NCBI RefSeq assembly: GCF_910596095.1
Contig: NC_056540.1
Location: 15,023,501 to 15,087,500 of the forward strand
Reading direction: 5' to 3'
DNA from: Thunnus maccoyii
Taxonomy: Eukaryota > Chordata > Actinopteri > Scombriformes > Scombridae
DNA length: 64,000 nt
Under the pieces are notes generated by a model. The model saw only the letters and a list, made by a program, of their open reading frames with translations. It ran no database searches and was not told where the DNA came from. This document shows, one piece after another, positions 14,044 through 58,000 of this stretch (the first letter of the stretch is position 1; the number at the start of each line of letters is the position of its first letter). The translations under genes and the position numbers were made by a program.

Positions 14044-17000
14044 ACACACATACACTCACCAGGGTGACCAGGGCCTCTTGTGGCTTAAGGTGGTGTTTCT
14101 GCAGCACCGCATAGAGCGCATCCTGCAGCGTCTTACTGGACTTTGCCATAATGCCCACTGTCTTACCAGTGAAGGCATTCTCCAGCCTGAAACACACAAA
14201 CACTTCATTACACTCACACACACAGTAATAAGAAACAGTAAATCTAAATCACATGCAGTGGAACAGCGAGAGAACATAATTAAAATCTAGATATGCAAAG
14301 ACATTAGTCATAGAGAAATCTGCCACTTCGTTATGTCTTCACAGGAAATCCTGTAAAGACATAACTCTGGCAACTTATCTGACAACACACTCAATGCAAT
14401 TGATAAGTATAATGATTACAAGCCAGAAAACCAGTCTATGTCTGGTGTTAATACAAGGACTTCCCTCTAATAACACAGTGAGAAGTGGCATGCTGTAGAG
14501 GGGATGTGGGTGTGAAAAGCCTACTAGGGTGACGAAGACAGGAAAAAAAAAGGAAATGAAGGAAGCGGCACAGTTGACTCACATAAACGTCACCCTAAGC
14601 TCTAGAGTGACCTGCTGATCTCTCAGTACGCTGCAATCCTGGTCCAGTGATAAGGGCTGCAAAGAGAACAAGTGTGTATCAGGCAAGAGAGAAATGAACT
14701 CTCAGAGGTGTCACCGTTAAGTGGGACGACTTTAAGGTTTTAAGGTTTAAGTTTGACAGAGTTTCCAAAACAAAAACAGTTAGTGAAATGAGACAGTGAG
14801 AGGTTGAGAGGATGTGTTAGAACAGGAAGAGGGTAGTCATCTTTCTCATACCGCCTGTTGCTAAACAACATTCTTGAACAGCTTCTTAATTTAAAAAGCT
14901 CTTTTTAAATTCATTTTTCCCCCCATCATTTGCAGGAGACAGAGCAGCCAAGTGCTCACCTTGTCCTTGCCCTTAAGGTAGATGATGACATCTTTCAGCG
15001 GGAAGCCTCTCTTCTCACATAGGCTGGCCAGCATGTCTCTGATGGGCAGGCCATTACGTGTGGGGGCCAGAGAGGCACTGCCATCAGGTAAGTAGACACA
15101 GCAGTAGCCCCCGAACCGATTCCCAACTCCACCGCTCACATCTAAGGAGCGGGGACTTGATCGGCCATTCTAAAATCAGAGAGGGAGAGGACAGAAAAGG
15201 ACTAAAGAGTTGAAAATAATTCTCCAAAGTGATAGATACTTTCTGACAGACTATTTCTATGCTGCCTTGTAGGCAATCTTTATTATTCATGTGTGCATAC
15301 TCCTCACGAATTTTAAAATGTCATTTTTCCCATTGGCCAGTACAAATTCTATGTACAAATGCACTGACCTCAATCTGCCTGTAGAGGGTGCCAAGCTCCA
15401 CACTGCTGGTAGACTTGACGGGCATATGGGACTCTTTTGATATCGAAAGAAGAAAAGACCATGAGGAGAGATTGTGAGATAAATTGCAAGGATTTACATC
15501 AAAGCCTAATTTAGAAGCATGAGATCTGCCATGTGACAGGCCACTGTACCTCCCCAGGATCCTCTTTTCTGTCGCTGTTTCTCTGAGGCACTCTTGCCAC
15601 TTTGCAAGCTGTTCTTGTTCTGTTTGAGACATTGATGACACGTCATTACAGCAAAGTCAAAAATCACATTTTAAAACATTTTGTAAACAAGCTCACTGTT
15701 GTTGTTTTTTCCTCTATTTTCTTCCTGTCACTCTACCTTCTTGTCACTTAAGGAGGGGCTTCTGTTGGCCATGTCCTCCAAGGATCCCATGCGGACCGGT
15801 TCTAAAGAGAGCTGAGGTAGAAGCTTGCCTTCTACACTTGCCAGGGTGCAGTTCTGGTAGAGAGGAGAGCGCACAAAGCGCCTGTAGCTGTCCATCTTCA
15901 TCAGCTTAAATATCTGACACACAAGCAGCAACAGAGATACACACAGTCAAGGCACCAACAACACATCACTGCTTTTTTTTTTGAGCCGAACTGGGAGTGT
16001 TGACTCCAAACAGACCTGTGCTTGAGCCTTGTTAAACATCTCAGGTGTGGGCTGTTCCAGGTCCTTCTCCTCTGTCTTGGCTGTGTCATCGATGTTGACC
16101 GAATAGGGAGCACTTTCAGACAGGTATTTGTTGTAGATGAAGCGAGCTGCCGTCTTTAGCTGCAAACACAACAGCTTCATCAGACTGAAAACTCCCTGAA
16201 GGCTAGACCTGACTTCAACTGATTAAATAATCATTGTTTCTAAGAACAGATACAAACTCCAGAAGCAAGTGACAAGCAAGTATTTAGCTAAGTATGTGTT
16301 GATGTGTTTTTTGTGCAGTATTAGCCACTTCCTGTGCCAAGAATCACATCAACCCTTCTCAACCACATTGCAAGCAATGCAATCAATAAGTCGCCGCAAG
16401 GCAATTAATTTCTCGCAGAGCTGAGCAACTTCATACACTCAGTCAACAACCCTGTTGATTTCTGTACTTCCTGTTTTCAGTAAATGTCATTAACTGAACA
16501 ATGTTTCTGCCTGAAAGGCACAAAATAGATTAAAGGTTGATGATACTTTTTACAGCTTCACAGCTGGCTACTTTTATTTGAGAGAACAGTGTAAAATAAG
16601 GCAAACAGCTCAAAAAATTATAGTTGAAAAAAAAGCTTCATCTGTCACGGAGGTCAATCCAGGGACAGAGCAAGACTCTCAGCACAAAGAGGGCAATCTC
16701 AAGGGGCTCTTCTGAGAAAGTGTAAAATGCCTGATATATCCTATCCATAAACACAAATTGTCACTTACTGAGCCGTGCAAGCCTATGTCTAAGAAAACAT
16801 ACAGTGGAGCCACTTTATCAGACAAGTTTGTTCTGAAGGACAAAAAAAGAAAACATGTTGCCAGTTGCATTAAAATTTTTCAGCACTGAGGACAGCACAC
16901 GGCGCTCTATGTGCATCGATTGCCGAACGGTGCAGCACCACCGCCGATAGACAGCAACAGGCCAGGTGCATTGTGTCAGTACCATGTCTTACAGGGGAAT

Positions 17001-25239: not shown

Positions 25240-27603
25240 ATGGTTATGCAAGGGATATCCCTATATATTTTGCTCGGCCATCTCTTCATTGGTAAGGAGC
25301 CTCCTTTATTTTTACAGTATATACTGTGTACTTTTCTCTTTCTCTGTATGCTTATTTAGCTCTGTACATCTCCGTTTCATTCTGTTATTATAGCTCATCT
25401 TCCTGTCCAGTGTCTCGAATGTGACACAGGAGAAGCTCTGGCAGGTAAAAAAAAAAAATGAATAAACTAAAACCTCTCGGTCTATTTATAGACATCACAC
25501 AATGCAGCTAACACAGCTAGTGCACCTGAACAATATGTGCCATTAAATAATTGCAAGGCAAGTCACAAAGGAAAAATGTTCTTAATGCTGTTCCTTCTGT
25601 CTCTCTTTTCCCTATAGATTGTCTGCCCTGCAAAGACAATGGTTGCGGTTAGTATCCTCTTTCTTCTCATGTTAAAGATACATCCTGTGGATTTTACATA
25701 CAGAACAGTACAGTAGATACAGTTAATGAAGGTGGGGTGTGGTCATAGAATGAGGTTGACTCAAACATGGCAAACATGGGCAACTTGAAAAATAAATTAA
25801 ATGCCATAAATATGATTATTAGTCTAAGGAAATTTATTAGATGTTTTTACTTAAAGTAATAATCTCAAAGATTTTCATTTAAATCAATGTATGTTAAATC
25901 ACTACCTATCACCAAATAAGGTAACACAATGGTGATTGAGCCTATGGCCCACTAGTGAAAGCCCTGGCATTTTCAGCATTACAAACTCTCTACGTTTGTT
26001 GGTAGCGACATTCCCGGGAAAAATCACAAGCGACACACAGTTAGTGTCGCGTTTTCCATCACCCGCCAGAGAGGGTGATGGAGGGTGATGAGGGTGTTTT
26101 TAACAGAGGTGTTAAATTATGGCTAAAAGAGAAACAACATTGTTCTCACACCTAATACCCCTGTATGGACACACCTGTATTTTTTTATTTATGTACTTGT
26201 GTATGTATTCTTGTTTATCCTCTGATCTTTCTTGTTTTTCTTCTTTACATTTTAACTTTTATATTCTATATATCTATCTGCGGACTCACAGTACTCTACA
26301 CAATACACCCACTTTACTACATGACACATCCACTTGGTTAGGTTTAGGCATGAGGAGTGAGACAGACAGGGTTAGGGTAAGAATATCGGAGTGGGGGCGT
26401 GGGTGTTGTGTAGTGAAGTGGGTGTATCATCTAAGTCTGCAAGACTGCAATTAGACCCTTCTCCATCTTCAAGTACGCCGCTTCAACTTGTGTGTGAAGC
26501 GGCGTACTTTTATCTCTGGTCTCTGCTAGCATTTCTAACTGCCAACGAAACAGAGATCTTCAAGATTGTTACTTGAAGTTCAGTAAGTTCATTCATATTC
26601 ACAGAAAAATGCTCCTACGTTATGAACACCTGTGATGGGTCATGTATGCTCTGTTACAAATTAAATGCTTACTGTAACTCTCTTTACTCTTTTTGCTTGT
26701 ATCTACAGATATTCCTCCAAAATGCAAAAAAGGTAACAATATCTTCTATCTTCTTTTGCAGTGCACTGAAACACATATGGTGATATTTGATTACATAACA
26801 CTTTCACTATTTGCTTCCCCGCCTGCCCATAAAACTTTCAAGTGTCTGTCATCGGCCCTGAATCCAGCGTCGATGAAGGTGAAACCGTCACTCTGATATG
26901 TTTCCATAACTTTACCAATGTGAATCTGACATTTGAGTGGCTAAAGGATGGGAAGCTCATGAAAGACCAAAAAGAAAGCAATCTGACTCTAAAAGAAGTG
27001 CTCACATCAGATGAAGGCTGCTACATCTGCAGAGTGAATAGCTCTCATGGTAGTTACGAGTCTCTGCCACACAGTGTCACTGTAAACAGTAAGTAGACAT
27101 GTCAATGCTTATTTCACACAGCCACACATTACTTCAGTTTTTGCAATGTAGATTGTTTATTGAACTTGTTATCCAGAAACCTGAATGTAGTGCATTTGAT
27201 AATTTATGAATTCAAAATGAAACAGAAGAAAAGCTCAAAAACCTCAGTAACCCTCAACAGCATGTGTCTTCATAGTCTGTCTGCTGTTTCTGCCTTTAAC
27301 TGTCTGTGTGTCTTCATCCAGATGGCAGTGTGGTGATCCTGGTTGTCTGTGGTGTTTCAGCTTTGGTCCTGGTCCTGATAATGGGGATGGCTATGAAGCT
27401 GAAAATGAAAAGAGACAACAGTAAGAGCTCATTTCAGGCTGTCTGTGCCATAAGAGAACACAGAAAGCCAAGTTGAGAACAAGCACCTCTGCCTTCTCAA
27501 ATACAGTACCAGTCAAAAGTTTGGACACACTTTCTCATCGGGGAAGTGTCCAAGCCTTTGACTGGTACTGTATATCTTACTCTCTAAGTGTAACTCACAT
27601 GTG

Positions 27604-29618: not shown

Positions 29619-32600
29619 ATGGGAGAAGCTCAAAAGGTAAGTGGACTGATCTGGAGCACAGGACTTATAAAAGCAAATGTGAACCTTTGGTATTTATTTG
29701 ACAGAAAGAACTATTCACAGGTTGGTATGACTCCAAAAGTGTCTACCATCAAGTGTTTTACTGTTTTTCTGTACCTGGATGCAACTGTCTGCTCTGATGT
29801 TTGGATTATATAAATTCCTTGGTTTGTCAAACAGTCTTGTTATAAAATAATAACTGTGAATATACATCTAAATTGAACCTCTAATTCACTTTGATCTCTA
29901 GTTAATCACACATACTCGTTAGTGTCTATTACCTAGAATCCTATATTTAAAGCTACAGTACCTCTTTGATCAGCAATGCAACAGTCTGTGTGGTTGCGTA
30001 ACCTTGCCTCAGACTAATCACATTAAACAGCGCACCATTATATGAATGGAGCCCCAATCAACACCGGTGCTTTTGTAAATGAAGCAACATAATGGGGGGT
30101 GGGAGGAATATGGTAGCTCCAGAGTACAGAGGCTGGAGGCTGGTAGGTGGAGCAAGATGTGTGCTCAGCAGTGTTGTATGTAAGGGGAGCTTTGACCTCG
30201 AATCAGAAAGAGGTCAATGGTTTTTCATCAGTTTTCAGATGTAAAGTATGTCTGAGAACTGTGTTTGTCTTCTTATTTATCTCCTGATATAATCTTGGAT
30301 GTTTCAGAGTGTATTATCAAGGAAAATAAAGGAAATAAGATCTTGTTTTTTTTTATATTAAAATTCTGGTCAAATATATAGTCTTTCCCTGTCCCACCCC
30401 GCTCTCTCCCTCCAAGCAGGGCTTACTCTCTGTCATTGAGAAACTGAAGGGATCCACAGAACAGGAGGTCAGGATAGTGCTTCTGGGGTTGGACAATGCC
30501 GGTAAGACCACCCTGCTGAAGAGCCTCGCCTCTGAGGACGTGAACACCATCACACCTACACAGGTGAGGGGAAGTTCAAAGTCAAAACTCACACACACAC
30601 TCACACACATCATGACCTCAAGGAAAGTCACTTACTTAAGGGCATAATTACACAGTACACCGCATCTCTGACTGACATGCTTGCAGATGTGTAAAGCATG
30701 CATATGTCTTTCGTGTCCTTCATTTTGATTTAATTAATCTTACCTAAAACAGCTGAGGAACTTTATAAGATAATTACCTGATGTTCATCATTAAGTGTAT
30801 TTTAGATATACAGGATGCAATCAGCCAGAAATATTTTTTTAACCAACAAGTTACCACCTGTTCTTTAAAGACCAGCACAGTTTGTCTGCCGTCACTGAAT
30901 CATTTTGTAAAAATAGGTGCAACTTTTTTACCAATCATGTTGATCTTGTGTGACTGAAGCTTTTCAAAAGATAGTTTGTATTTTTACAGTACTGTAACGC
31001 AGCATTATAAAACGCAGGGGGATTGTATTTAATCTTGTGAGACCAGCTGGACCAGCGCACGCTCTCACTCAAAGTAATGGGATTCAGATGACCTTTCCTT
31101 TTCTAACACGCTGTGAAATGAAACGATTGGTCTTACAGCGCACACGCTTTAGCCACTAATCAGTAAAATAATGACGTGAGGATGTTAGATCACACTGTAT
31201 GTTAAATAACCGTCATCAGGAGATAAACCACATCCTTATGTGACCTTCCTGATTTGAATGCTCTCAACACATTTTCTGAGAAGATCCTTGTGTTGTCGTG
31301 AGGACTCTTTTTTTTATCACCCTCTTCTGATGTGATTATCTAACCTTTAATATGATTATCTAATAGCCTTGTGTTACTCTCACAAGACAAGACATAAAGC
31401 AGATGTATTGCCAAGTCCTGGACGAGTCTGACAGCTCATCAGACTCACGGCAGAGAGGATGCAGTCCAGTACGACATGGCAATAGTCACCACAAATCCAA
31501 ATCAGACTTGACACATAAACACATAGACTGCAGCTGATCCTTCCAGTCTTATCCTCAGATTTGCTCTTCAGCTTGCCCTCAGGATGAAGTTGTTATACAA
31601 CCTTGCCGACCGAAACAGAAAGGAGCTGCGTTATGAAAAAGGGTGGCGGATTAACACAGTGACCATTTTCTTGTAAACACCTGGAGCACATGTTGCGCTC
31701 CTGCTGATACGTAATGAGGATATAATAGGGAGTGTAAATAATTCAATACATACACCTGTGTTCTGGTACGTTGGCAATTGGCTCCATAACCATTTGCAAA
31801 GCTCTCCAGGTGCTGCATACTAGAACTGTGTTAAACTGAATGCACTGACATGAAGAAGAGTGACTCCAGCTGCAGTATGTGTTGCACTTCAGGGCTTCAA
31901 CATAAAGAGTGTCGCCTCTCATGGTATGAAACTCAATGTCTGGGACATTGGAGGACAGAGGAAGATCAGGCCCTTCTGGAAAAAGTACCTGGAGAACACA
32001 GACCTGTTGGTGAGTGACATTTCAAATTAAAATTTCTCCAGGGAAACATCTGGTTTATTCTTTATTTGGATCCCCATTTGTTGGTGTGGTTGCAAGTCTT
32101 CCTGTGGGTCCACACAGGTCTTCACTGAACAGATATAACAAAAAGCACATGATGTGGAAGCACAAAATCCTAATAAAATACATACATTTTCACAAAGAAT
32201 GTTTAATTACTCAGGACAGGACACCACATATATGCACAGGTTAAGCATTATTATTGTATCTTGATGTAGGGACTTGTTACTCAAATTTTAATGCTTAATG
32301 AGAACTATATTTTCCTTTTTTTTTTTTTAATTCTCAGCAGCTATATGCTAAACCCAAGAGTCACTGACACCTTCAGGAGTTAACATGCAAATAGCCAAAT
32401 GTTGAGAGCAAAAAGAAAACTTTTGACCCATGAATTTTTTGAGTTTTCTTTTAGTAAATGAGAGTTTTATTTTATTGTGTTTTTTCTTCCAGATTTATGT
32501 TATTGACAGTGCAGACAAGAAGCGGTTTGAGGAGACGGGACTGGTGAGTTTGATGCACAGTTCTAATTTCCACATGCAAACACATACTTAAAATAAACCC

Positions 32601-35784: not shown

Positions 35785-36129
35785 ATGCCGCAAGTTGCCC
35801 ACCTGGCCTCCATGCAGCCAGACCTACCCACAGTGACCCCACGCCCCAGTTTCAACGTCACCCAGACGACCTTCAGCCTCCTGACCACCACCACACTGCT
35901 CCCATGGGAGGAGGTGCACATGCAAGTGCACACAATCCTGATTGTGGTCATTTTTTGTGTGGTCTGCTTCCTGCTCCTGCTGGCCTTCTTCTACGCCTTT
36001 TGCTTCCACTGCTCCATCAATGCAACACCTAAAGACTCACAAACGGCCAATGGATGCAGCCTAGATCGTGAGGACGCCACCTTTAAGCGCAGTTCATCTG
36101 ATGGCCAGTCAGTTGGGAATGTTGTCTGA
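35785..36129 (+). CDS. 114-aa single-pass membrane protein, unnamed
   Basis: A single-exon frame runs from ATG to TGA. The N-terminal half is rich in Thr and Pro with one N-glycosylation site (NVTQ) and no signal peptide. A strongly hydrophobic segment at about 52-78 (HTILIVVIFCVVCFLLLL) is the membrane helix. A Cys-rich boundary (FCFHC) could be palmitoylated. The polar tail (about 36 residues) ends GQSVGNVV. Arrangement suggests a type III protein with N-terminus outside. An acceptor-like tacttag lies 15-20 bp upstream of the ATG and a 5'UTR exon may end near 35487. AATAAA at 36347-36352 fits a 3' end. I cannot place it in a family; the features resemble the many small integral membrane proteins of vertebrates. 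Confidence 0.7.
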   Translation: MPQVAHLASMQPDLPTVTPRPSFNVTQTTFSLLTTTTLLPWEEVHMQVHTILIVVIFCVVCFLLLLAFFYAFCFHCSINATPKDSQTANGCSLDREDATFKRSSSDGQSVGNVV

Positions 36130-37250: not shown

Positions 37251-39605
37251 TCATGACATGGTGCACATGGCGCTCTTGGAGCAGCGGGAGTCACAGGAGC
37301 TGTCGTGGGACTCCATGATGGATTCTCTACTGTTGGACTCAGGCGAGTCCAGTTCCAGGAGAGGATCCTGGAGGCCGTCCTGCAAAGCGTCCTTATAGTG
37401 GGACTGGGGAAGAAACAGGTCAATTTATCACAAAAAGACACTAGTAGGTAATGACAACATCAAATCAATCAGGGTTTTAAATATATTTGTGTCATTAAAA
37501 GTGTTTATTCACCTACCAAATTACTTGAATTTTGATAGAATCAGTTAGAGGCAGTTCTGGCACCAGATATTCCCTCTCACCTTATGAACAGACATCTCCT
37601 CCACCCGGCACTCCTCCATCGACTCCTCCAGAGAATGGCCTGAAATCTCCATCTTTATACGGTGAGAACGAATGGACTTGACATCATCCTCGTCCTCCCC
37701 TGCAACCAGTGGGAAAACCTAGAGGCAAAAACAGAAGAACTCACAGAATCAGAAATGGCGATGATAGCAATGAAGCAAACAAGAGTGTGTGCCAGCCAAG
37801 CGTGACTGTCTCGGCTATATTCGCACCAGTCCCTCCTCATCCCCTGTGGCCTCAGGTGCTGAGATGGTGGCCTTGCTGATGGCTTTGCTGATGGTCTGGG
37901 TCTCAAACTGAGGACATGCCGCTTGAGCATTCCCATCTTTGTCCCTCTTTCCTTTAAGCCAGTAGGTCTCAATCTCAACGTTCCCCTAAAGGATTGACGG
38001 ATGGAAGAAAGAGGTAAATAAAGGATATAAAGATGACTAACATATGCACAAATATTCAAAGACATGTGCTCATAGGCACAATTTCTTTTATGTGGGGGAG
38101 TAAAAAGGCAGATGGCGAATTTTCAATAGTCAAAAGTCCCTGATGAAAAATGGCTGCTCTCTAAAGATTGGCAACTGTAATCAGCTGCCTCGGAAACCTT
38201 CGGGAGTCACTTTGCTGGCACTATCACTGAATGTACAGGCTCAAAGTCAGACCCGCTGATAAAATAGACTGGCAAATCAACAAGCAAGCTGCAATTACCA
38301 GCTCTGAATACTAAGTGTGCTGGATCCCCAGAGCCAAAACATTGTGAGTTATTATTATTTTATATTTCTTTAAAATCCAGTTGCTGATCCTCCCCTGACA
38401 CCAGTTACACTCTCAGTGTTGGATCCCAGGAAGGTTGTAGCATGCAGAAAACATGTATGTCCTCTTAAGTGATCATCACTGTGTGTTACTCATATGTCCT
38501 CCAACAAGTAATTAGCGCTTTTCTTTGTTTTTATAGTAGCTGAGGAAATGCATTCAATGTGGTGGGTGCTAGTTGCTGTGGTGACAGTCTTGACCCCTGA
38601 CCTTAATAGTAATGATGCCCCTCCTTTCAAAAATGAAATGACTTCCTTTCAGGTGCTCGTAAGTGGCACTGCTGAGCTGGATGTGCATCTCCTGATTGAG
38701 ACAGAGAGTGACCAGTCACAAAATCACAGAAAAAAACTGATGCATTACTTCAAAAGTGATATTTACACATTATAACATGTTTTTAAGCATTATTTTCTTT
38801 CTCAATCTTCCATACCTTTCCGTTGCTCTCCATGGCAGACGCAGTGTGGACTGTGTCCCCATGTAAACCGTAACGCGGCATCTTATGTCCTACCACGCCT
38901 GCGACGACCATCCCAGAGTGGATGCCTGAAACCGGAACAAAAGGTCAGTTCACTCAGTCAAACACTGACATAAACACTCAAACACACACATTCAACCCAC
39001 CAACACGGATTTGTATGTTGTTGCCGTTTGAGGGGTCTTTCAGGTGATCGATGGAGCGCACCATGTCCAAGGCCATGTCACAGATGTTATGAGCGTGATA
39101 CTTGGTCTTCTCTGGAGCCCCGGCTACCACCATATAGGCATCTCCAATGGTCTCAACCTGGAAAGGAGAGAGGCAGCAGTTCTTACACAGCAGCACCTAT
39201 GCTGTATATAAAGTACATTACACAGAGAAAAAAAAAAAACAGATGCAAACCTTGAAGACTCGGTGCTTCTCACTGAGCGTGTCAAACAGAGTGTACATGG
39301 TGTTTAGCATGGAGACCACCTGCATTGGAGTAATGTGGCTGCAAATGCGGGTGAACCCAACCACATCACTGAAAAGAATGGTAACATCTGGGAACACCTG
39401 GGAGAGAGGAAGGAAGTTGATTCACTGCAAACACACACACACACACAGTTGAAGGAAGCATATTTTAGTGTATGCATTGTTGTGCACCATCAGCAGGCTG
39501 CTCCAACTCAAACTGAATTTCACTACAACAAGAAGTTTCCAGTGTGCCTCATATGCTCCAGCATGCCCAGGCAAGCAGTAAGAAATCCAAGGATTTATAT
39601 GAGTA

Positions 39606-39636
<31 letters not shown>

Positions 39637-42600
39637 GTGTGTGTGTGTGTGAAGTAAGCCTCAAGCCTTAATTTGTAAGAGGTGATGGGTGCTGCTTTTT
39701 TAGAGCCAAAAACAAGATAGTGCTTGGGTGTATATGAGTTAAACAGAAGAAAATGTTAAAGCACTGAAGCAGTTGTTTCTATTGTTTTTGACATGAAACA
39801 TGGTTGGTGTTGTCAAGATTGGTGCTTTTCTTTTGTTTAATATTTTTAAGGTATTTTATGCCCATTATATAGATGAAAGTAGAGAAATAACATGAAATGA
39901 GTGAAGAAAGAGATGCAACATGTTCCTGGCAGATTGTTCTACTTTGGATTGTTTTATTGAGACGTACTGTCTTTGGCAAAACACATATTCTTTTCTCTGC
40001 TCTCCAATCCTGACCTCACAAGTGTTTACAGCCGGTTCTCCTTTGCGCAACCTTTTTGCCACCGGCTTGGGAATCATCCTGTACAAAAGGTCATCAGTCT
40101 TCTTCATCTCGTAGTCCAACATTTTCATGCTCTCCTCTAGTTTACTGGACTTCTTTTGCTCCTGCATTCTCAACAAGGAACAGGGACAGAAAAACACTGT
40201 AAGTTTGAATTTGTTTCTTTCATCTCAGGCGGTAGGTGTTCTGGGGCTGCTAGACTGAAAGAAGGGCTTCAGAGCGATTTTGCATAATGCAGAGTGACAA
40301 GTGAGCTGATCACACATATAGAATTAAGCAGCACGTTGGTGCAGTGAACCTGTATGAGAGCTCTCTTCAGCTCCTCTGACTGCTGCGTGCCTGCCAGCAC
40401 CAGGTCTCTGCTGGAGTCGTGCATGCTCAGGTCATTGATGTACAGGCCGGTCTTAAACATAGCACTCAGACTCTCCATCCTACACACACACACACACACA
40501 CACACAGAGTTAAAGAGAGAGCAAGGAGAGGACAGAGACAATGATAACATTAATAATATGTACTAAAATAATTACAGATTCATTTTAGTAACAAGAGCAG
40601 TGTCTATAAAACTGGGGAACAAAAATATATTTTTACTATTCTACAGTATAAACAATGTAAGAGGCGTGATATGGCATTTACATTTCAGTAATTTTGTCAA
40701 TACAGACATAAGGGCTTCAGCTTGCAAATCAAAATGTTTTAGAAGAGGAGGGAGATGTTTTGGTAATGTACTCTGTGGAAAACACTCTCAGTTGCAAATG
40801 GGTTCCCATTAGGCTCACAAGAGCTGCACTGTCTGATTACAAGCTAATTAGCAGCTCATTTCATGCATGGTAAGTGCTGTTAGAATGGGCCCCTGATTTG
40901 ATTCACTGCCCAGGCTTTTATTTCCAGCCTCGTAATTCAGTTTAGCGCTAGTTGCTTTTTTCAATGTTTTACTTTTCAACTGCAGCTTTTTCATAAAGAT
41001 CTTTGTCTAAGTGTGTATATGTGTGTGTGTGTGTGAGTGTGTGTAGGTCTTACACAGGGGTTCCCAGGAAAATGATGGACTCCCACTCTGGCATGTATCT
41101 CATTTGTCCTTTTAGTTTCAGGCAGCGGCTCCCATCGCCCCAGCTCTCCATGGCATTAGCGCTGTTACCGTCTAAAAGAGGAGCACAATCAAACCAAACC
41201 AACGAGACAAACATTTTAGAGATGAGTTTCAGGTTGAATTTCAGCTTTAGATAATAACTCCACTGTGTTAACAATGTCATCCTAATGAATTTCTTTTGTA
41301 GTTTAATATATCTGTGTCTTTAGTAGGTTTTTTTTGTCAGCCTGACTGGTTTAGTGTCTGTATGCTCAGGTTTTATATATGTCTTTTTAGATAATAACAG
41401 AGAGGTCATGACCTTTGTAATCATCTCCAATGATGGACTGGAAAGCCATGAGCTCCACATCTACGTCAGCAGAGCGATTGGCATTTTCATAGTCAGAATC
41501 TGTGGGAAACAGGGTAAACTATCAGAGCCATAAACACACATATTCACACCCTCCACCCATGACAACCGACAGTTGGGATCAGCTCCACTGAATTCAATCA
41601 ATTTAAGTTGAATTAAGGCATCAAACAATTCAATTTCAGCAACTGTGGCACCTCCTAAACTCTCTTCTTCAATTTAACACCACTTTCAAGGTTAAATGTT
41701 CATGTTCAAGCTCTCACATAACAACGGACACCCATTTTGCTGCGCACCTGCTCTGTTCCTTATCTAATGAAACTGAAATTGAGCGTGTCTCTTGCAAGTG
41801 ACTGCAGTGAAATTGATCTGACCACAAGCCAGCGAGTCCTCGCCCACAAGACACACACCCCTGAGAGTGTTTACATGGCTCCCACTCTTACTCTGGACTC
41901 GGTTGTGGAGGTTCCTCTCTCTCTTCACAGGCTCCTTGGACATGATCTCAAACAGGTTGTTGGGGTGGGAGATAATCTGTGAATTTTGTTCCACAAATCT
42001 TAATAGCTGATCTTTTACATTAGATTAATTGTTGTTTATTGCAAATTACTGAGGCCTTAATTGCACTGAAGCCTGGTGTGAAATGAGTACATGTGAAGTC
42101 TCACCATGTTCCAGGTGAACTCCACTAGGGGGCGAGCCAGCAAGAAGGCATCGTTGATCTTCTTTCCATCCAGATCAGGGAAGACTGTGGCTAGGCCTGA
42201 GCCTACATTGTGCACCACCATGTCCTAAAGAATCAGAGAATCACCAGGATTGTTCTTTTACTTAATTTATTGACTGCCCATGATGAATTTACGAACGCAA
42301 CTCAGAACTATTACCTGTCTGAAGACGATGTTAAAGGGGAACACCTCAAAGAAGAAGTCTGAGGTAATTGGCAGAATCTCCTGCTCTTCCTCATCCTCCT
42401 TCATGATGTAGCGGTAAGCCGAGTTGTCAAAGTTCAGCCTGCACGGACGCACAGATAAATTCGTTTTCTAAAGTTTAAAGTCGAGTATAAAGGAACTGTG
42501 CCCACCTGTGTGTGTGTGTGTGTTTGTCTACCTCATGGTGACATGAGAGTAGTCTCCCACCATCTGCTCAGACAGCACCTCCACATGGATGTCTGTGTCG

Positions 42601-44307
42601 TAGAACTGCTTCCCCATCTGCCTCAGCTGACCCATGGCGTAGTGCAGGTAGCCCTTGCGTTTACTCCTGCAGGTCACGGAGATTAATTGCACACCTTTCA
42701 GTCTCCCACTACTTTTATGTTTGATGCCTGATAGTCTATCAACAAACTCTCAGACCTGTAGTGGAGGGTGACTCCAGTGGCAGACTCCTCCTGGCAGAAG
42801 AAGGTTGGGGGCTGCACTTTGGGGTAGCTGAAGCGCAGGTATTCATGAAGGTTGTCCAGGCCATTGACAAAGTCACGTACATGACGGCCCAGCACCTGAA
42901 TTCAGAGACAGAAGGTGGCAGTTCATGTCTTCCCTACTTGTAATAAGTTTTATATTATAATATTCTTAAAGTGACGCTCCAACGTGACACAAAAAGGTAC
43001 ATTTACTCATCATGGGATGTAAGTTGTCAAAACTGTTGTAAAATGTCTCCTGTGACACAGGAAGTTAACTCTGTGAAAATAATCTCAGTGTGGGTTTGGA
43101 GACTTTAAATTCAACACGTCTATGATCCACAATTTAGGGAGCTTAACAAACACTAGAGAATAAAAATCTGAATGTCTTGCCCTCTGCTTGACTGTTCTTT
43201 TTGTAATCTGTCCTTTGTGAGTTCCCCGAACTGCACCCAAATGGTGCAATACTAAATCACTGGACTCTCCCTTTAAAAATATTTTTACATCTATTTTGCC
43301 AGAAAATCACTGACTGCATTATGTTACTCAAATTCTCAATTCATAATTCCCCAAAACAGCTCTGCAGAAACATTCAAAATAGCTATTTTTCTATCAATAA
43401 GGGCCGGACAGAAATTACCCCAAAACCAGGGTTAATAATACACCAAACTACAATGTGTGCATGGATTATTATGTTGGATTATTGCATCCTGTATTCTATT
43501 GATAACCCCTGATTTTAGAAAATGTGCAAAATCTTAATGGTTGTAATTTTGTGTGACATAATTTTCTACTGACTTTAATAGAATTCAATTGAATCAGTTA
43601 CAATTATTTCTTCATTTGTGTAAGGACTACATAAAAACCCTTTAATCACAATAATCCTTTTAGACTACAACGACAAGGATAAAAGATTTAGTTTTGAACA
43701 GTATAGAGTATATAAGATACTCTGTCAAACATTACCATAGCACTGTGGTAGTATTTAAGATACATAGTTCTGTGAGCGTTAAGTTATTCTCTCACATATC
43801 TTGTACAAGACAGCAGAGTTTTGACAGTTTCGAGTCTGAGATTTTTTCTCACCTTGAGGATCCTGTCATAGCCATATTTCCCTACAAATCCCAGGAAGTA
43901 GACACCCCAGGAGTTCATCAGTTCATTGTAGGGTGTGCCTGTCACTCCACTGGCTGCCTTTGCAATACGGGGAATCACACTCTCACTATACACCTGCAGG
44001 TGCACATATACAGACTTTAGTGCCTCTAGAAAAACACATTTTTTGATTGAAAAGTTCTCGACAAAAGCAGACACAGTGACAGAGAAAACTTGACTGCAGT
44101 TGACATGAATGATCAAAAACAGGACACATTTATTACTATTCTACTCGTGTGTACAGTATCATGTAGAATTATTTGTTTCAGAAATACCTGGTGGGTGACA
44201 AAGGAGTGTAACCTGACATCAGCTCTCTCTCTGACCAGCTTCCACACATCGTCTCCATACGACTCCTTGATGAAGTCATGAAGACTCTCACACAGCAGTC
44301 CATACAT
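37251..44307 (-). CDS. gucy1b2: soluble guanylate cyclase beta-2, atypical
   Basis: Eighteen exons, all phases agreeing, 2301 bp, 766 aa: 44307-44188, 43993-43853, 42895-42756, 42666-42532, 42438-42315, 42224-42105, 41976-41892, 41499-41413, 41171-41054, 40479-40350, 40161-40015, 39397-39251, 39157-39001, 38925-38816, 38691-38602, 37985-37827, 37718-37581, 37403-37251. The start MYGLLCES matches the family N-terminus; an upstream in-frame ATG at 44349 is less likely. The haem (H-NOX) domain fills about 1-185 with ligand His104 and the Y133-S135-R137 haem-propionate motif. Then come a PAS-like region, a helical linker (near 410-440) and the cyclase domain from about 450. Metal ligands Asp460 and Asp504 and Glu500 are present. 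The usual guanine Cys is Gly570, and the catalytic Asn and Arg are His577 and Ala581. The tail of about 150 residues ends Cys-Thr-Met-Ser, a CaaX-type prenylation box. Beta-2 is linked to low-oxygen sensing in mouse olfactory cells. Confidence 0.93.
39606..39650. repeat. (GT)n microsatellite in gucy1b2 intron 11
   Basis: About 22 GT units with one interruption, between the exons at 40161-40015 and 39397-39251. Confidence 0.95.
40481..40505. repeat. (CA)n tract at a gucy1b2 acceptor
   Basis: On the coding strand this GT tract directly forms the polypyrimidine region of the exon 10 acceptor (40479), so the acceptor is built from a microsatellite. Confidence 0.9.
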
Positions 44308-46592: not shown

Positions 46593-49500
46593 ATGATGAT
46601 GATGCAATCTGGCCTGGATGACACGGCTAAGCTGAGGATGTTGCAGGCTAAGGCTCTGTCTAAGGAGGTCAGAGGAGGTGAGTCTGGATGTATTGAACTG
46701 ACACACATACACAATACTTGGAAGTAAAATTACACACATATTGGTTTATATATTACGTCAGCAACTTGTGTGTGTTTACACCCATGTTCAGACTGTTACA
46801 GTGTGTGATTACATCCGTGTCTGTCAGATGTAATTGAGACAAACATTAAAGTGTGTTAGTCCACATGCAGTATGGCACACCCAAATCCCAGGAGTGCTTG
46901 TGTGTTGATGAAATTCTCCAAATGTTCCAGCAGGGACCATCCCATTTGCACTGTTTGTTTTCCAGCGCTGCCCGCCAGCTAGGCTTTGAAACCGAGTCCC
47001 CTAAACTCAGCAAAATGTGACTCCCACCAGTGAATTTAACACAGGCCGATCAAAGGCAGCTCCTCGAGGGTGGCACATGCACAGATTCCTCCAAACACTT
47101 ATCGTGTGTGAGAAAGAGGGCCATCCGCTTTCACATGAGTCTTTCATCCAAAGATCCTATTTATATGCCCAGTTACCCATGCAACCCTGGACCACAACAA
47201 ACATTACACACCCTTTGACATCATCAAGAGACTATTTCAGGCCTTCCACTGTGCCGTGATATAACATGAGCAGAGACCCTGAGCAAAAAGCTGTGTGGAT
47301 TCCAACTTAGTGATGCTCCACAGTTTTGCTTTTTTAAATCGGTGCCCCTCAGCTGTTTGAGTCGACAGAAACAAGAAGATCAGAGGAGACATTATGATTT
47401 GCCAAAGGTCCTTATTAGTCTGTGTTACTTTCTTCTCTTTCCAAATGTCTGGAAGTTGCTGCTATCATTGCCTTTCCTCTCACGATTAAATGTCATGATG
47501 TATTTATGCAGGGTTAGAGTCAGCTCATGTCGTGCCACACAACACGAATAGTCAATGAACAAACCGGGGGCAAATAGATTTCACTATTCAAATGCTGCAA
47601 TTTGGAACATGCATAGCAATATTCAGTGGAATCACTTATTAAAGCACCTTCATTTCTATGTCATGTTGTGCCAGAGGGTCTGAACCTGGGGAAGAAGATG
47701 AGCGTTCCAAAAGACGTGATGATGGAGGAGCTCAATCTTCCATCTAATCGAGGCTCTCGCATGTTTCAGGAGAGACAGAAGAGGGTGGAAAGGTTCACAC
47801 TGGAGAATGCTGCCAATGGTGCTTACAACACCATCAATGTAAGGCACCGACAGGGACGGCGCATAGCACACGGTGACTCATATGCAAAGCACTTAACTGC
47901 AACTTGAACAGACAAAATTATCAACGCGTGGTCCTGACATGTAGTTTATGCCTAATAGCTGCTTGCTAGTGTACTGGATTTATCAAAGAACTATAATTAA
48001 TGGGCAACGAAGTTTGTCTGCTGTCTCATTTCTTAAACATCTTGCATGCTTTCTCTCACCTTAATGAATGAGTGACACATTAAGAAAAACAAAACAACCC
48101 TTGTAAGAGGAGATGTTACAGGGTTACTTTGGTAATTTTTAGTATTGCCTCTTCATAAGGTTGGACCCATAAGAGACATACTTTTTCAACCCCTTTCTGC
48201 AGACCCCTTGGTGTGTTGATGCCGGCATCCAAACTTAGTTTATATGTGAAACAAGTCACTCATTAACCAGAACAAAGTATCATTCAAATGTGTGTCTAAG
48301 AATTATTAGCAACTCTTAAGCTGTGAATATGTGAAATTAGAAGTTTGTAAGTGTTGCTTTGTAATTAATAGAAGTATCTTCCAACCCCCTTCTCTTTTCA
48401 TTACAACTGAGTGCACCATGCCTAAATGGAGAGGATATTTAAAGGCATTTAAAAAACTCTATGATGGTTTTCTTTCACTACTAAACAAACATTTGCTATT
48501 ATAGCAACAAGAAAAAGTGGTTACACCCTGAATATATGCCAATAGAGTTTTTGAAATGCCTGCTAACTCATAAGGAGATAACCAGAAGATATTTTCAGCA
48601 GAAGAGGCCTGGATATTCTCCCATTTAGTTTCTAGCATGACTCAAGCCTCAGACACACTGGATCTTATGCTTCCCGTAATGCAATTCAATAGCATCTTTT
48701 ATTAGACCTCTCCCTGCCTCCTAAATGCTGCCCACCTCTTGCAAACCCTCAATTTATAATGCAGACTCTCTGTTAAAAAGTCTCAAGGTCAAGCTGAGAT
48801 AACTCTGATTCCTCCCTCCAGAGCCACAGAGGACATTATGCAGCTGTTTTCACAAGCTGAGCAGTACTCCGTGATGAGTCAAGTGAAGTGAACTTCGTGT
48901 CTAAAATCTGTGGAGTAAAGTATTTAGGGAGTAAATACATTCGCACGAATCTAACTGGGTTCACTTTCCCAGGCCCATCCAGAGGCCGTTCCTCCTCCGC
49001 AGATCATCCAAGAGCCACAGGGAGGAAAGGAGAACCAGGCTTTCTCCATCCCTGGTAAGCATAGCCTGGTCATGAACCTTCAGAAGACTGTAGCAAAGAA
49101 AGGCAGTCCTGATGTCCTCGCTCCAGGTAAATGTTAACACACAAGGATGTAGAAAGGATTGCCACAGACTGCCACAAGTCATAGGACTAGTTCACTGCAA
49201 TGACAAACGCTTGAGCAACGCCAGTGCCTGGACAAAGCCGACGCTTGGGCAATGCATGGACACTGTGATCTGCTAGTATTCACCTTTTATATGGAAATGT
49301 GTGAGCAAATGAATTTGTGATATTGGGACCAGTGCCAGGGGAGTTGGCATTATGCAGAAAGCAATTATCTTTGCTTTTTGTGAGCATCTCTACTGAATGC
49401 TGTTGTGTGCTCGGCCTGACAGAAGGCACTGCTTACAGTGTGACTGACAGTGTGCTAAGCTCTGTTTATTATCTGGGATTCACACTGAGATCTAATTACT

Positions 49501-50992
49501 GTAGTTCCTATTGTTGATAGGAGTGACATCAAAGAGATTTATTTGCATTAGATTCTGTTTGTGCTTTGTTGGGGATTGCTTTTTTTTGAGTTAATAGGTT
49601 TTGTAATTAGTTTCAAAAGCACAAGGATTATTCATTTTTCTCAACACAGGGGACTGAGTATTGCTTAGTTGGGATTTAATGCATGAAATTAAAGTAACAC
49701 TGCTTTCACCTTGCCAAGAGAGGTATAACCTTAGATTGAACCTTTTCTCTGTTAGGATATTCTGGCCCTCTGAAGGAAATTCCTCATGAGAAGTTCAACA
49801 CAACAGTAATCCCCAAATCCTACTCTTCCCCTTGGAGGGAAGCTTTGGGAGACAGGGAAGAGCTCCTGGCTGTCCTCAGTAGCCAGCTGCCCCAGCTCCC
49901 ACACAGACAACAGCCTGCCAACTACAGGTGCTTCAACAGGTAAAATCCTACCTTCATATCTGCACTTCCAGTTGAGGTTCAGTTCAACTAAATGAACTAG
50001 ACGTGACTAGAGAGCTTGGGGAAGATAGGATCAGTTTGTAGTTAGAGAAAATGACATGTTCACCTCAACTAAAATGATTCAATCCTGTTCTGTGGAAGCA
50101 CATGTTTTCAGACCCACCCATCTTCAAATAGACCCCCAGATGACCTAACCATGTTATCCATCACAATCATCTCTTCCCTCGGCTCCACTCCATGTTTCCA
50201 CAGTTTGAAAAATAATCCAGTCTCTGGCTTGCACCTCCTTGGACTGTAGCTGCGTGATGGCTATTTTGAACCCTGGTTCTTGAAAGATGATCCACCGGGT
50301 TTGCGAGCTTTTAATGCCCCAACACAAGACAGATTACGCACGAAAGGGAATCACCTTTCTCATGGCACACAAGGAAGTGCATCACACCGGCGAGGCAGAA
50401 CAAAGGTTAAACTCGGGCAGATGGAGAAATAGAGAATATATGAAAGCCAAACTCAGACTGTACTCATTTAGTCAGTCACTCGCTCTGCCAGCCAGTCTGG
50501 AACTTTACCCTCTGTGGAGGGATCTGTTTACACCCCAAAGATTATTATGAAATTATGAAGCCTTAATTAAATCTGAACTCAACTAATAGTTAGAGCAGCT
50601 ATGCAAGTAGAAGAGGTTGAGTTCACTACACAGTCATCCTGAATCCCCCAGTGGGCGTAGAGTTAAATGAGAGATGACCAGATATCATGTACCATCTGAA
50701 GGTTTTCCCCCTTTATGGGAAGGAGTGTGAGCCATGTGATACTTCTGCCAGGAACATGAAACACAATGCTTCCACCCTGCTTAGTAAGGACTTTTCTTTG
50801 TCTCTCAGATCTGCCATGCCATTCGGGGGCGGTATGGCCAGCAAGAGGGTGATCCCAGTGATTGGCTTTGAGGCAGTGGAAGCCCAAAACCTGCCCAGCA
50901 TCGCTCTGGAAAACATGTGTCGACGGCCCAATTTCAACAGAGCACCCCGGGGATGGGGAGCTGATTACTCCCCAGAATCTAATGAACTATGA
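46593..50992 (+). CDS. myoz3: myozenin-3 (calsarcin-3)
   Basis: Five coding exons: 46593-46677, 47675-47838, 48973-49126, 49756-49939, 50809-50992. They total 771 bp and 256 aa with consistent phases (human MYOZ3 is 251 aa). The product is a Z-disc scaffold that binds alpha-actinin, filamin C, telethonin and calcineurin in striated muscle. Family signatures are LNLGKKMSVPKDVMMEEL (31-48), NRGSRMFQERQKRV (53-66), APGYSGPLKEIPHEKFN (133-149), YRCFNRSAMPFGG (192-204) and RPNFNRAPRGW near 236. The C-terminus ESNEL resembles the class III PDZ ligand of myozenins (E-S/T-D/E-D/E-L) with Asn in the middle. MYOZ3 rather than MYOZ1 or MYOZ2 is chosen for the short central region and for the neighbouring rbm22. 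The acceptor before the ATG lies 9 bp upstream, so 5'UTR exons precede it. Four consecutive ATGs make the exact start ambiguous. Confidence 0.92.
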
Positions 50993-55000: not shown

Positions 55001-58000
55001 CAAAGACAAATGTTCACACAGAGCTGTAACATACAATTCAGATAATAAGCAGTAAGTATTTTGATATCACAGCACCAGGTTTGAGCCCTGATACACTGCA
55101 ACAGTTGGCTGTTGTGTGAAGTACCGCTCACCTATAGGGACACTCCTCCCCTCTCTTACACTCTCCCTTCACCCAGAAAGAGCAGATGTGCGGCCGGTTC
55201 CTCTTGTAGTACGGTGTTGTCCGAGCCAGTTTCAGCAACATATCGCTAGAGCTGGTAGCTTTACCTAGCTGGCCCACTGCCCGTGTGCCGTCAGAATTGG
55301 CTATCTGAGAACACAGAGGTCCAAACAGACATGAAGGACTGACGACAGGAAAATCAGAATCTTAACAAGGATTATTATCAACTAGTTAGGGAGGTCCTGA
55401 TTTGACTCAACGAGATGTTACAGGTCAACCAAAACTCTAAAGTGCTGCTGATGGTTGAAATCTGCATTAAACGCCAATACTTCTGTTCATTGCAGAGATG
55501 AAGACAGTCTGACCAAATCATGTCCAATCCTACGACACTACACAAAAATATTGTGAGAAATTCTTAAAGGAAAGTTGGAATACATGTTTTATTTTCTTAA
55601 TAGAAGATTATTCAGCTATAAAATATATCTTAATGGCTTAACCAGTGTAAATGTAGGCACATTGTAGAGTAATGAGCACTGTCAGATCTATTATACAGCT
55701 AAAAGGAAGGTATAGTATAAATTAAGATAGTAAAATAACTGACTCACACTCTGTATCAACAAATATTCAATATTAAAAAACTCAGATAAGGGATGAAGAA
55801 ACATGATCAGGACTTTCCAATAACTAGTGTAATGATCTGCATGCATCAATAAAAACAAATATACCTCTCTCTCCATGTTCTGTGTGTAGTACTCTTTGTT
55901 CACATCTGACTTAGGAACTTCGTCTTTAATAGCAAGACCAGTGTCTCGGACCTGGATGGGCAAACCTGTTAAACACAATATGTGACAGGGGGTTAAACTC
56001 AGATATATACTATATGCTGTGAGACATAAAACATGTACACAGGCCAAATCAGAAGTAAACAGTTGCAGACTCACCGTACTCCAGGTCTAGCAAACATGTC
56101 TGACAAACATTCTTCATTTTACTGCACGTCTGACAGACCTCCGTCTTCTTGAAACGCATCCGTGTTCCCGGACACCAACGGAACACGGTAAAGGGTCGAG
56201 CACAGATCTAATGGGCAAAGAATGAAAAAAAAAAAAAAGTATTCTTACTTTAAACTGTGTTTCGTACGATCAAACTATGTTGTATGTTGCATGATTATGA
56301 TTTTAGGTATTTTACAAAACATACCTTGCATTCTTTCCCATATTTCTCCTTGGTCTGTAAAACAAAACATAGATAAATTAAATTAGAACCCACACACCAA
56401 ATTATGTCAACTCAAATTCACAAAGACACTAATGCTCACTCACCATACGGATGTACGGGTTTTCTCCTAAACATGTCTGACACAGAATTGGAAAATCCTG
56501 TAAGACAAAGAGATGCTCATTTAGTAAAAACAAACAAAAAAAAAAGCACCATATCTGTCCATCATCTAACAGCACTCAGATATAAGTGTCTGAAGCTGTA
56601 ACTTGACCTACAATCTCTGTTTTACTTTCTACTCTGGGCACCTTGATGAAGTTACAAGTGTGAATACACAGAATGTTATTGGACTTACTTTGCCATCTGT
56701 TGAAGGATGCTGTTTCAGTCCAAGTGCTAGCTGCTTAAAAATGACCCCACATTATCCCTCTGCGGTCTGAGACATTTTTTTTCTATTACTGGTGCCTTGA
56801 CTCTCTTAATAGATGAACATTTGTATAAATTCGGTGCTGTAAGTTACAAGCAAATAATTGATATCTTTTTCAGCATAAATTGGGCTATGTGAATGTGTGT
56901 GCCGCAGTGATATCACATGACATATTATAAGAACAAGTGACGGCTCGTTGTAACGGCTGAACGATGCGCTGCAGGACAGTTTTTAAAGTAAGTTGCTACA
57001 TACATCCATTACAGAGATATTATTAAAAGTACCAACTGAGTGCTTTTGCAATGGTAGATGAATGATAAGACCCAAGGGGATGAATTCATCCTCCCCACAG
57101 CATCAGCCAAGCATCTAAATATAAGCGGCTTGTATGACACAAATGTCAACTACATAGTCTAGGGTTGCCAAGTTTGTATTCTGGTGTCTTGATAAAACCA
57201 ACATTGGCTAAAGGCCCGCTTGTGTCATAGCTCAAGAGAGGAAACTGATTTGTTGCCTTTTATAGTAGGGCCACAAAAATACAGTTGCTTCACGTGAAAA
57301 TATTAAACTAAAGAGTAAGAATTGGTAAATATGTGAAAACTTCAATTTACCTAAAATACCGTTTGGATAAATAAATACATTCCCCACAACAATGACCAAG
57401 ATGACTATCATGACAATTAGCACAGCTCAAGTAATTATCAGTAACACAAGGTGCGTCTACTGGGAATTATAAGGTGCCCTTTCGTAAATCCTCACTTGGA
57501 CAGACGGCTTTTTGGATCAACATGTGGAACTCTTTACCTACAGAACTCAAAATAGACCATGATGGGATGAATTAAAACTCAAACTGAAACAGCTTCTAAA
57601 GAGGGATGAGTCATGTAGTCATGAGTCATCTGGTGCTTGTTATTTTATGAAACTTTTATAATATATTTGTTTATGTTTTGTGTTGCTTTGTATTTTAAAT
57701 GCCCATCTAGGAACAGGCATTGCAAACTACCTTAGGCTATAAATGCTGTTCATGATATATTCTTGTCCCTATACAAATAAATATTAAATATAATAAGACA
57801 TGTCTCCTGAACTGAGAGATGTTAATAATACACACACACCACTTTTCAAACACTTCATGAGTCAGAATATAAGCTAAAGACAATTGGACCTGTGCGGTTA
57901 GCCACCTTTTTTTTCCTAGGATGGTGAAGTCATGACCCACCCGACTCTGTCTCTGATTGGTTAGTACTTGTTGCCTTTGTTGGTTGGGTTCACATGTCTA

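Follow-up and report, generated by a model that had tools for sequence, protein, structure and literature searches.

Soluble guanylyl cyclases (sGCs) of an "atypical", O2-sensing class are described from invertebrates, among them Gyc-88E and Gyc-89Da/Db of Drosophila, MsGC-beta3 of Manduca and GCY-31/GCY-33 of C. elegans. Gyc-88E is active alone, Gyc-89Da/Db enhance its activity, likely as heterodimers, and low O2 activates, according to the available parts of PMC11344882, PMC9075734 and PMC2990333; section 10 of PMC1435932 reports both Gyc-88E and MsGC-beta3 as active alone. Other class III cyclases divide the labor between two protein halves. In sGC alpha-1/beta-1, and likewise in C1/C2 of adenylyl cyclase, the metal Asp and the Arg lie in one half, the base, Asn, Arg and Lys residues in the other, and together they form one working site. 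Excerpts of PMC2576301 and PMC3591389 state that Asn orients the ribose, Arg stabilises the transition state, and Glu and Cys read the guanine. Do vertebrates keep a cyclase of the atypical class, and could it be built in such halves? The 88E name already exists in fish annotation: the pikeperch gene LOC116049087, "soluble guanylate cyclase 88E-like", is highly transcribed in brain in a 2025 study (excerpts of PMC12673963), and we set it beside the gene described here by annotation name only. Among the matches listed in a search of titles and abstract starts, with subscription journals mostly outside its scope, no description of a vertebrate atypical cyclase or of a loss of the Cys, Asn and Arg discussed below was found.

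We analysed a stretch of 64,000 nucleotides from the genome of Thunnus maccoyii (C8:15023501-15087500 in our numbering; the window). Its minus strand carries a cyclase gene of 18 open coding exons, running from 44307 down to 37251 and encoding 766 amino acids. Exons were placed by hand from their splice sites. All 17 introns are of the GT-AG type, some having weak donors (gtcatg and gttcac, for example), and an open frame extends across the 766 codons. The whole protein matches the Pfam families HNOB (173 bits), HNOBA (247 bits) and Guanylate_cyc; for the latter (PF00211), the whole protein scores 214 bits and the isolated domain 218 bits, compared to a cut-off of 21.9. The features, in window coordinates, are as follows.

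37251..44307, minus strand: whole cyclase gene, from exon model, GT-AG introns, open frame and Pfam matches
44188..44307, minus strand: exon 1, start codon, residues 1-40
43853..43993, minus strand: exon 2, residues 41-87; Val77 at the position of beta-1 Cys78
42756..42895, minus strand: exon 3, residues 88-134; proximal haem His104 (42847..42845) and Tyr133 of YxSxR
42532..42666, minus strand: exon 4, residues 134-179; Ser135 and Arg137 of YxSxR, Tyr143
42639..42641, minus strand: Tyr143 codon; O2-type residue of the distal haem pocket, aligned with beta-1 Ile145
42315..42438, minus strand: exon 5, residues 179-220; Phe209, aligned with beta-1 Cys214
42105..42224, minus strand: exon 6, HNOBA region, residues 221-260
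41892..41976, minus strand: exon 7, HNOBA region, residues 261-289
41413..41499, minus strand: exon 8, HNOBA region, residues 289-318, weak donor gtcatg
41054..41171, minus strand: exon 9, HNOBA region, residues 318-357
40350..40479, minus strand: exon 10, HNOBA region, residues 357-400, weak donor gttcac
40015..40161, minus strand: exon 11, last part of HNOBA plus the linker leading into the cyclase domain, residues 401-449
39251..39397, minus strand: exon 12, first metal Asp460 (39367..39365), SDVVGFT intact
39001..39157, minus strand: exon 13; Glu500, Gly503, second metal Asp504 and Arg549 all intact
38816..38925, minus strand: exon 14 (feature under study), residues 551-587
38825..38872, minus strand: degenerate B-side motif, residues 569-584 (Gly570, His572, His577, Ala581)
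38602..38691, minus strand: exon 15, residues 588-617; Lys617 kept (triphosphate Lys column)
37827..37985, minus strand: exon 16, end of the cyclase domain and start of the C-terminal extension
37581..37718, minus strand: exon 17, C-terminal extension
37251..37403, minus strand: exon 18, C-terminal extension, ending Cys763-Thr-Met-Ser-stop, CaaX-like

Several other genes and open frames lie in the window. On the minus strand, open reading frames at 14894-16222 carry an RGS domain (15950-16222) and a Raf-like Ras-binding domain (14894-15169) and belong to an RGS14-like gene. The plus strand holds an open frame with an immunoglobulin domain (26833-27093), Arf-family exons at 30339-30644 and 31890-32010 (within 30339-32010; by eye, an Arl3-like gene extending to about 33184), and a single open frame at 35785-36129, whose small product has one hydrophobic stretch and matches no Pfam family. 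A calsarcin/myozenin gene (plus strand, 46593-50992, ends placed by eye; Pfam matches at 47617-47904 and 50678-50989) stands head-to-head with the cyclase gene, and a zinc-finger exon of RBM22 (zf-CCCH_RBM22) lies on the minus strand at 55131-55361, with further pieces by eye down to 52026. Myozenin beside RBM22 resembles the MYOZ3-RBM22 arrangement of human 5q33 rather than the surroundings of GUCY1B2 at 13q14.

Within the exon 14 motif, the guanine-recognition Cys is replaced by Gly570 (GGT), the catalytic Asn by His577 (CAC) and the Arg by Ala581 (GCC). The initial annotation had reported these three replacements, and both its coordinates and its residue numbers are exact in our hand-built exon model, as they are for the metal-binding Asp460 and Asp504 and for Glu500, all of which remain. 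It had not listed a fourth change, the loss of the motif Phe to His572 (CAT). Also retained are Arg549 and Lys617; Val620, beside the triphosphate Lys, is another change. Over the 16 residues of the motif, 12 are identical to human NPR1; all three functional positions are among the four substitutions, for which the chance is 0.7% (a post-hoc figure). Human beta-1, Manduca beta-1 and NPR1 agree at 78 domain columns; the window protein carries another residue at 18 of these, 4 of them in the motif. A sequencing error at these codons, named in the initial annotation as a possible refutation, is ruled out as a single event and was rejected: six or more base changes, in frame, would be needed. An alternative, canonical exon 14 was likewise sought in the window and none was found, the best other ungapped score being 20 versus 167.

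Cys, Asn and Arg being replaced, the window protein does not hold the complete one-subunit set of a cyclase of the homodimer type. What it holds is a half of the alpha/C1 type: the metal Asp pair and the triphosphate Arg are kept, Asn and Arg are lost. Written as residue sets, its A-side reads DDR and its B-side EGHAK; human and Manduca beta-1 read GDT and ECNRK; alpha-1 has DDR on the A-side and carries Thr and Lys in place of Asn and Arg. The proposal that this is the complement kept by alpha-type subunits therefore stands for Asn and Arg, which alpha-1 lacks too, but not for Cys, which alpha-1 keeps, unlike the window subunit. A further difference from sGC is that the changes sit here in two sister genes of another class, as set out below. 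The expectation that a homodimer should be inactive and that a heterodimer could work holds on paper, with the B-side half lost and the A-side half kept.

Which gene is this? It had been named gucy1b2, and it does share with GUCY1B2 the HNOB-HNOBA-cyclase order and the MYG start. We searched the window's own genome (782 Mb) for H-NOX domains. A first scan of genome contigs found no relative; the later genome search, followed by tblastn on fetched stretches, yielded at least eight matches in at least four genes, on C2, C6, C8 and C10, counts that are lower bounds. The C2 gene is beta-1, with a cyclase domain 91.8% identical to that of human beta-1. The C6 gene is of the beta-2 type, with MYGFINTCLK, NQLKEGK and YCLFGDTVNTASRMES intact and a complete cyclase motif, YCLFGDTVNTASRMESHG; we take it to resemble mammalian beta-2. 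C8 is the window gene, and tblastn shows C10 to be a second gene resembling it. In a tree of seven rows, some partial and none of them an invertebrate sequence of the 88E class, the window gene and C10 form a branch of their own as sisters (support 100/100, branch lengths 0.30 and 0.31); the link of this pair to the C6 gene has a support of only 86/87.

The haem pocket leads to the same answer. The window gene has the haem His104 and the YxSxR residues Tyr133, Ser135 and Arg137, which are also common to the NO-type beta subunits. In the distal pocket it carries Tyr143 at the position of beta-1 Ile145, where beta-1 and beta-2 have the non-polar Ile; the C6 gene has Ile here, and section 9 of PMC1435932 gives the distal-pocket Tyr as the criterion for the atypical O2-sensing class. 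At beta-1 positions 78 and 214, human beta-1 has Cys at both and the window gene Val77 and Phe209. We take these to be the two cysteines of NO sensitivity; the C6 gene, in a fragmentary row, keeps both. Sections 8 and 10 of PMC1435932 describe the two cysteines as absent from MsGC-beta3 and the C. elegans proteins. Judged by these residues, the window gene has the features that the literature gives for the "atypical" O2-sensing sGCs of invertebrates: the H-NOX haem His with YxSxR, the distal-pocket Tyr and the missing equivalents of Cys78 and Cys214, with more than one member per genome in both. The likeness is one of residues, and the window gene differs from Gyc-88E and MsGC-beta3, reported as active alone, in that it has lost Cys, Asn and Arg and occurs in a fish. 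We reject the name gucy1b2 and, with it, a beta-2 identity: the genome's beta-2-type gene is a separate one on C6, with the pocket Ile, both cysteines and a complete motif, and the window gene is sister to C10 and has an O2-type pocket. It is not the genome's beta-2 ortholog. The zebrafish gucy1b2 primers given in an excerpt of PMC4480006 encode WMESLN and NQLKEG in one pair of frames. Another frame gives TSLKRA, which matches EELKRA, and WMESLN matches VMESLS, both of these matches lying in exon 10, so the primers cannot tell which gene zebrafish gucy1b2 corresponds to.

The C10 paralog has its start codon at 5095939 on the minus strand, and no stop interrupts the 13 coding pieces that were checked, for each of which the best stop-free frame was taken; two regions, part of the linker and the tail, were located but not connected in frame, which leaves the model incomplete. 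Its haem domain scores 176 bits (HNOB), its cyclase domain 222 bits, and 339 of 574 aligned residues are identical to the window protein. Within the cyclase domain, identity to the window protein is 72% for C10 and 43% for beta-1. The B-side motif of C10, YCLFGDTVNTASRMESNG, is intact, with Cys, Asn and Arg kept and all 16 residues identical to NPR1. Changes are found on the A-side, where VETIRDAY places Arg at Gly503 and SDVVKFN places Lys at Gly463, both metal Asp and Arg549 being kept. At the O2 position C10 has Phe, as opposed to Tyr143 of the window gene, and lacks the atypical-class Tyr. Its last open frame ends ...STACSIL-stop, CaaX-like as is the ...SAMCTMS-stop of the window protein, which may be prenylated there. 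None of 14 pieces of the window's neighbours matched within 100 kb around C10 (E up to 1e-3), so local synteny lends no support to a block duplication. By eye, open reading frames near C10 (G000:C10, about 5.053 and 5.071 Mb) resemble tropomodulin and TNFAIP8-family genes.

How unusual are these residues? Bacterial class III cyclases served as a comparison, using the best 80 of 242 found. Among these 80, the Asn column holds its usual residue in 79 rows and the Arg column in 77, and both columns lay outside the patterns used to fetch the bacterial loci. One such pattern contained Asp460 and Gly463, so that the bacterial counts of 80/80 for these two residues are uninformative; Glu500, Gly503 and Asp504 were part of the second pattern. 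The bacterial count for Gly503 (Gly in all of the best 80 of 242) stands, because 79 of the 80 rows have Lys at 500 and were not fetched via the Glu500 pattern. Among 11 non-bacterial rows, Gly503 is Gly in 10, C10 being the exception, and Gly463 is Gly in 8, with Lys in C10, Thr in the C6 gene and Asn in AC5-C2. Since Gly463 is replaced in other cyclases as well, only Gly503Arg is a clean A-side change in C10. Of the 46 columns with a conservation of 95% or more among the bacterial rows, 11 are changed in the window protein and 11 in C10, compared to 9 each in the C6 gene and NPR1; many of these departures are differences between guanylyl and bacterial cyclases and are shared among the guanylyl rows. 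One bacterial cyclase domain, L035 from Polyangia, has Cys at the base position and Ala/Lys at the Asn/Arg columns, a guanylyl-type domain that resembles an alpha-type half.

Is the window gene simply decaying? Compared to C10, it has a dN of 0.196 and a dS of 2.04 over the 178 codons of the cyclase domain, dN being about a tenth of dS, and a dN of 0.33 and a dS of 1.88 over 574 codons, with dS near saturation in both. Relative-rate counts with four outgroups (changes unique to the window gene : unique to C10) are 15:9, 12:7, 4:9 and 8:8, with a chi2 of at most 1.92, and none of the four shows a significant asymmetry. The window cyclase domain scores 218 bits; in four solved proteins (human beta-1, Manduca beta-1, human alpha-1 and NPR1) the cyclase segments score 206-242. 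Constraint is therefore acting on the window gene, which is not clearly the faster-evolving of the two sisters. With a low dN/dS and no detectably faster copy, decay is unlikely, and the argument first drawn from the intact frame of 18 exons gains from these figures; decay of the whole gene was rejected on the open exons, GT-AG introns, Pfam scores, near-equal branch lengths and low dN/dS.

One half-site is lost in the window gene and its sister gene keeps that half; the two therefore probably work only as a pair. We put at about one in two the probability that the window protein is one of the two halves of an obligate guanylyl cyclase heterodimer belonging to the atypical O2-sensing class, with C10 as its most likely partner on sequence grounds. 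The window subunit would supply the metal/triphosphate half (Asp460, Asp504, Arg549) and an O2-type haem pocket (His104, YxSxR, Tyr143), having lost the base/ribose/transition-state half of Cys, Asn and Arg. C10 would supply Glu, Cys, Asn, Arg and Lys, its own metal half appearing damaged by the changes of Gly503 to Arg and Gly463 to Lys. The complete site would thus join D, D and R with E, C, N, R and K, and the reverse site would be without Cys, Asn and Arg, leaving the pair with a single functional site beside a dead one, the arrangement of sGC alpha/beta and of adenylyl cyclase C1/C2. If the atypical cyclases of the fly are a guide, falling O2 might raise cGMP through a single O2-type haem, in the window subunit, and both subunits may sit at membranes by their CaaX-like ends. 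For these two proteins, pairing, activity, O2 binding, direction of regulation and prenylation are what we infer. More tentative is the wider proposition that vertebrates keep an invertebrate-type O2-sensing cyclase and that two sister genes of this fish lineage, by reciprocal degeneration, came to form an obligate heterodimer that has one active site and a single O2-type haem, so that the alpha/beta split would have been re-invented independently.

Several points speak against the pair. The window subunit still has the B-side residues Glu500 and Lys617, C10 has Phe at the O2 position, its gene model has gaps, and the pair was seen in a single genome. A C10 homodimer, with the metal Asp pair and Arg549 present, might be active without the window subunit. 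This bears on the suggestion, in our view unlikely, that the window protein is a pseudoenzyme, a haem-bearing regulatory subunit that modulates or blocks C10 or others without lending catalytic residues: three active-site residues are gone from a domain that scores normally, and C10, keeping both Asp, Arg549 and the full B-side, could be catalytic alone. A pure scaffold, however, would have no need of the intact A-side of the window protein, Arg549 and Gly503 included, and C10 carries Arg at Gly503. It is also quite unlikely, but conceivable, that the window subunit acts as an alpha-like partner of beta-1 or of some other complete subunit, either replacing C10 or in addition to it. Beta-1, whose gene is present on C2, has the missing Cys, Asn and Arg, and has Gly for the first metal Asp that the window subunit carries; on paper it complements the window subunit equally well, whereas alpha-1, without Asn and Arg, would not. 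Such a dimer would hold an O2-type and an NO-type haem together. C10, though, is far closer to the window protein (by the cyclase-domain identities above and as its sister in the tree), and the heterodimers reported for the atypical class in the available parts of PMC9075734 and PMC11344882 are within the class only.

The remaining explanations are less compatible with the data. A relaxed or decaying allele, or one specific to this individual fish, would fit a single genome with four substitutions among 16 otherwise conserved codons; we consider it improbable given 18 open exons, GT-AG introns, normal Pfam scores, the low dN/dS since the split from C10, the lack of a significant excess rate and the near-equal branch lengths. 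Least of all do we expect the window homodimer to retain cyclase activity through substitutes such as His577, perhaps with an altered nucleotide preference. His577 could hydrogen-bond, and Glu500 and Lys617 are kept; residue 581, however, is neither Arg nor Lys, and even the single change Cys541Ser in beta-1 is reported as detrimental in an excerpt of PMC3591389. We hence continue to favor the heterodimer of the window subunit with C10.

Correcting the name of the gene matters in itself, for gucy1b2 would direct readers to the NO and olfactory beta-2 literature. How fish detect an acute fall in oxygen has long been a question. If the pairing proposed here is true, a vertebrate cyclase of the O2-sensing class, built in complementary halves, would be a concrete candidate for a low-O2 sensor and would give fish a direct sensor from O2 to cGMP. 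It would also be a clean case of an enzyme homodimer turned into an obligate heterodimer.
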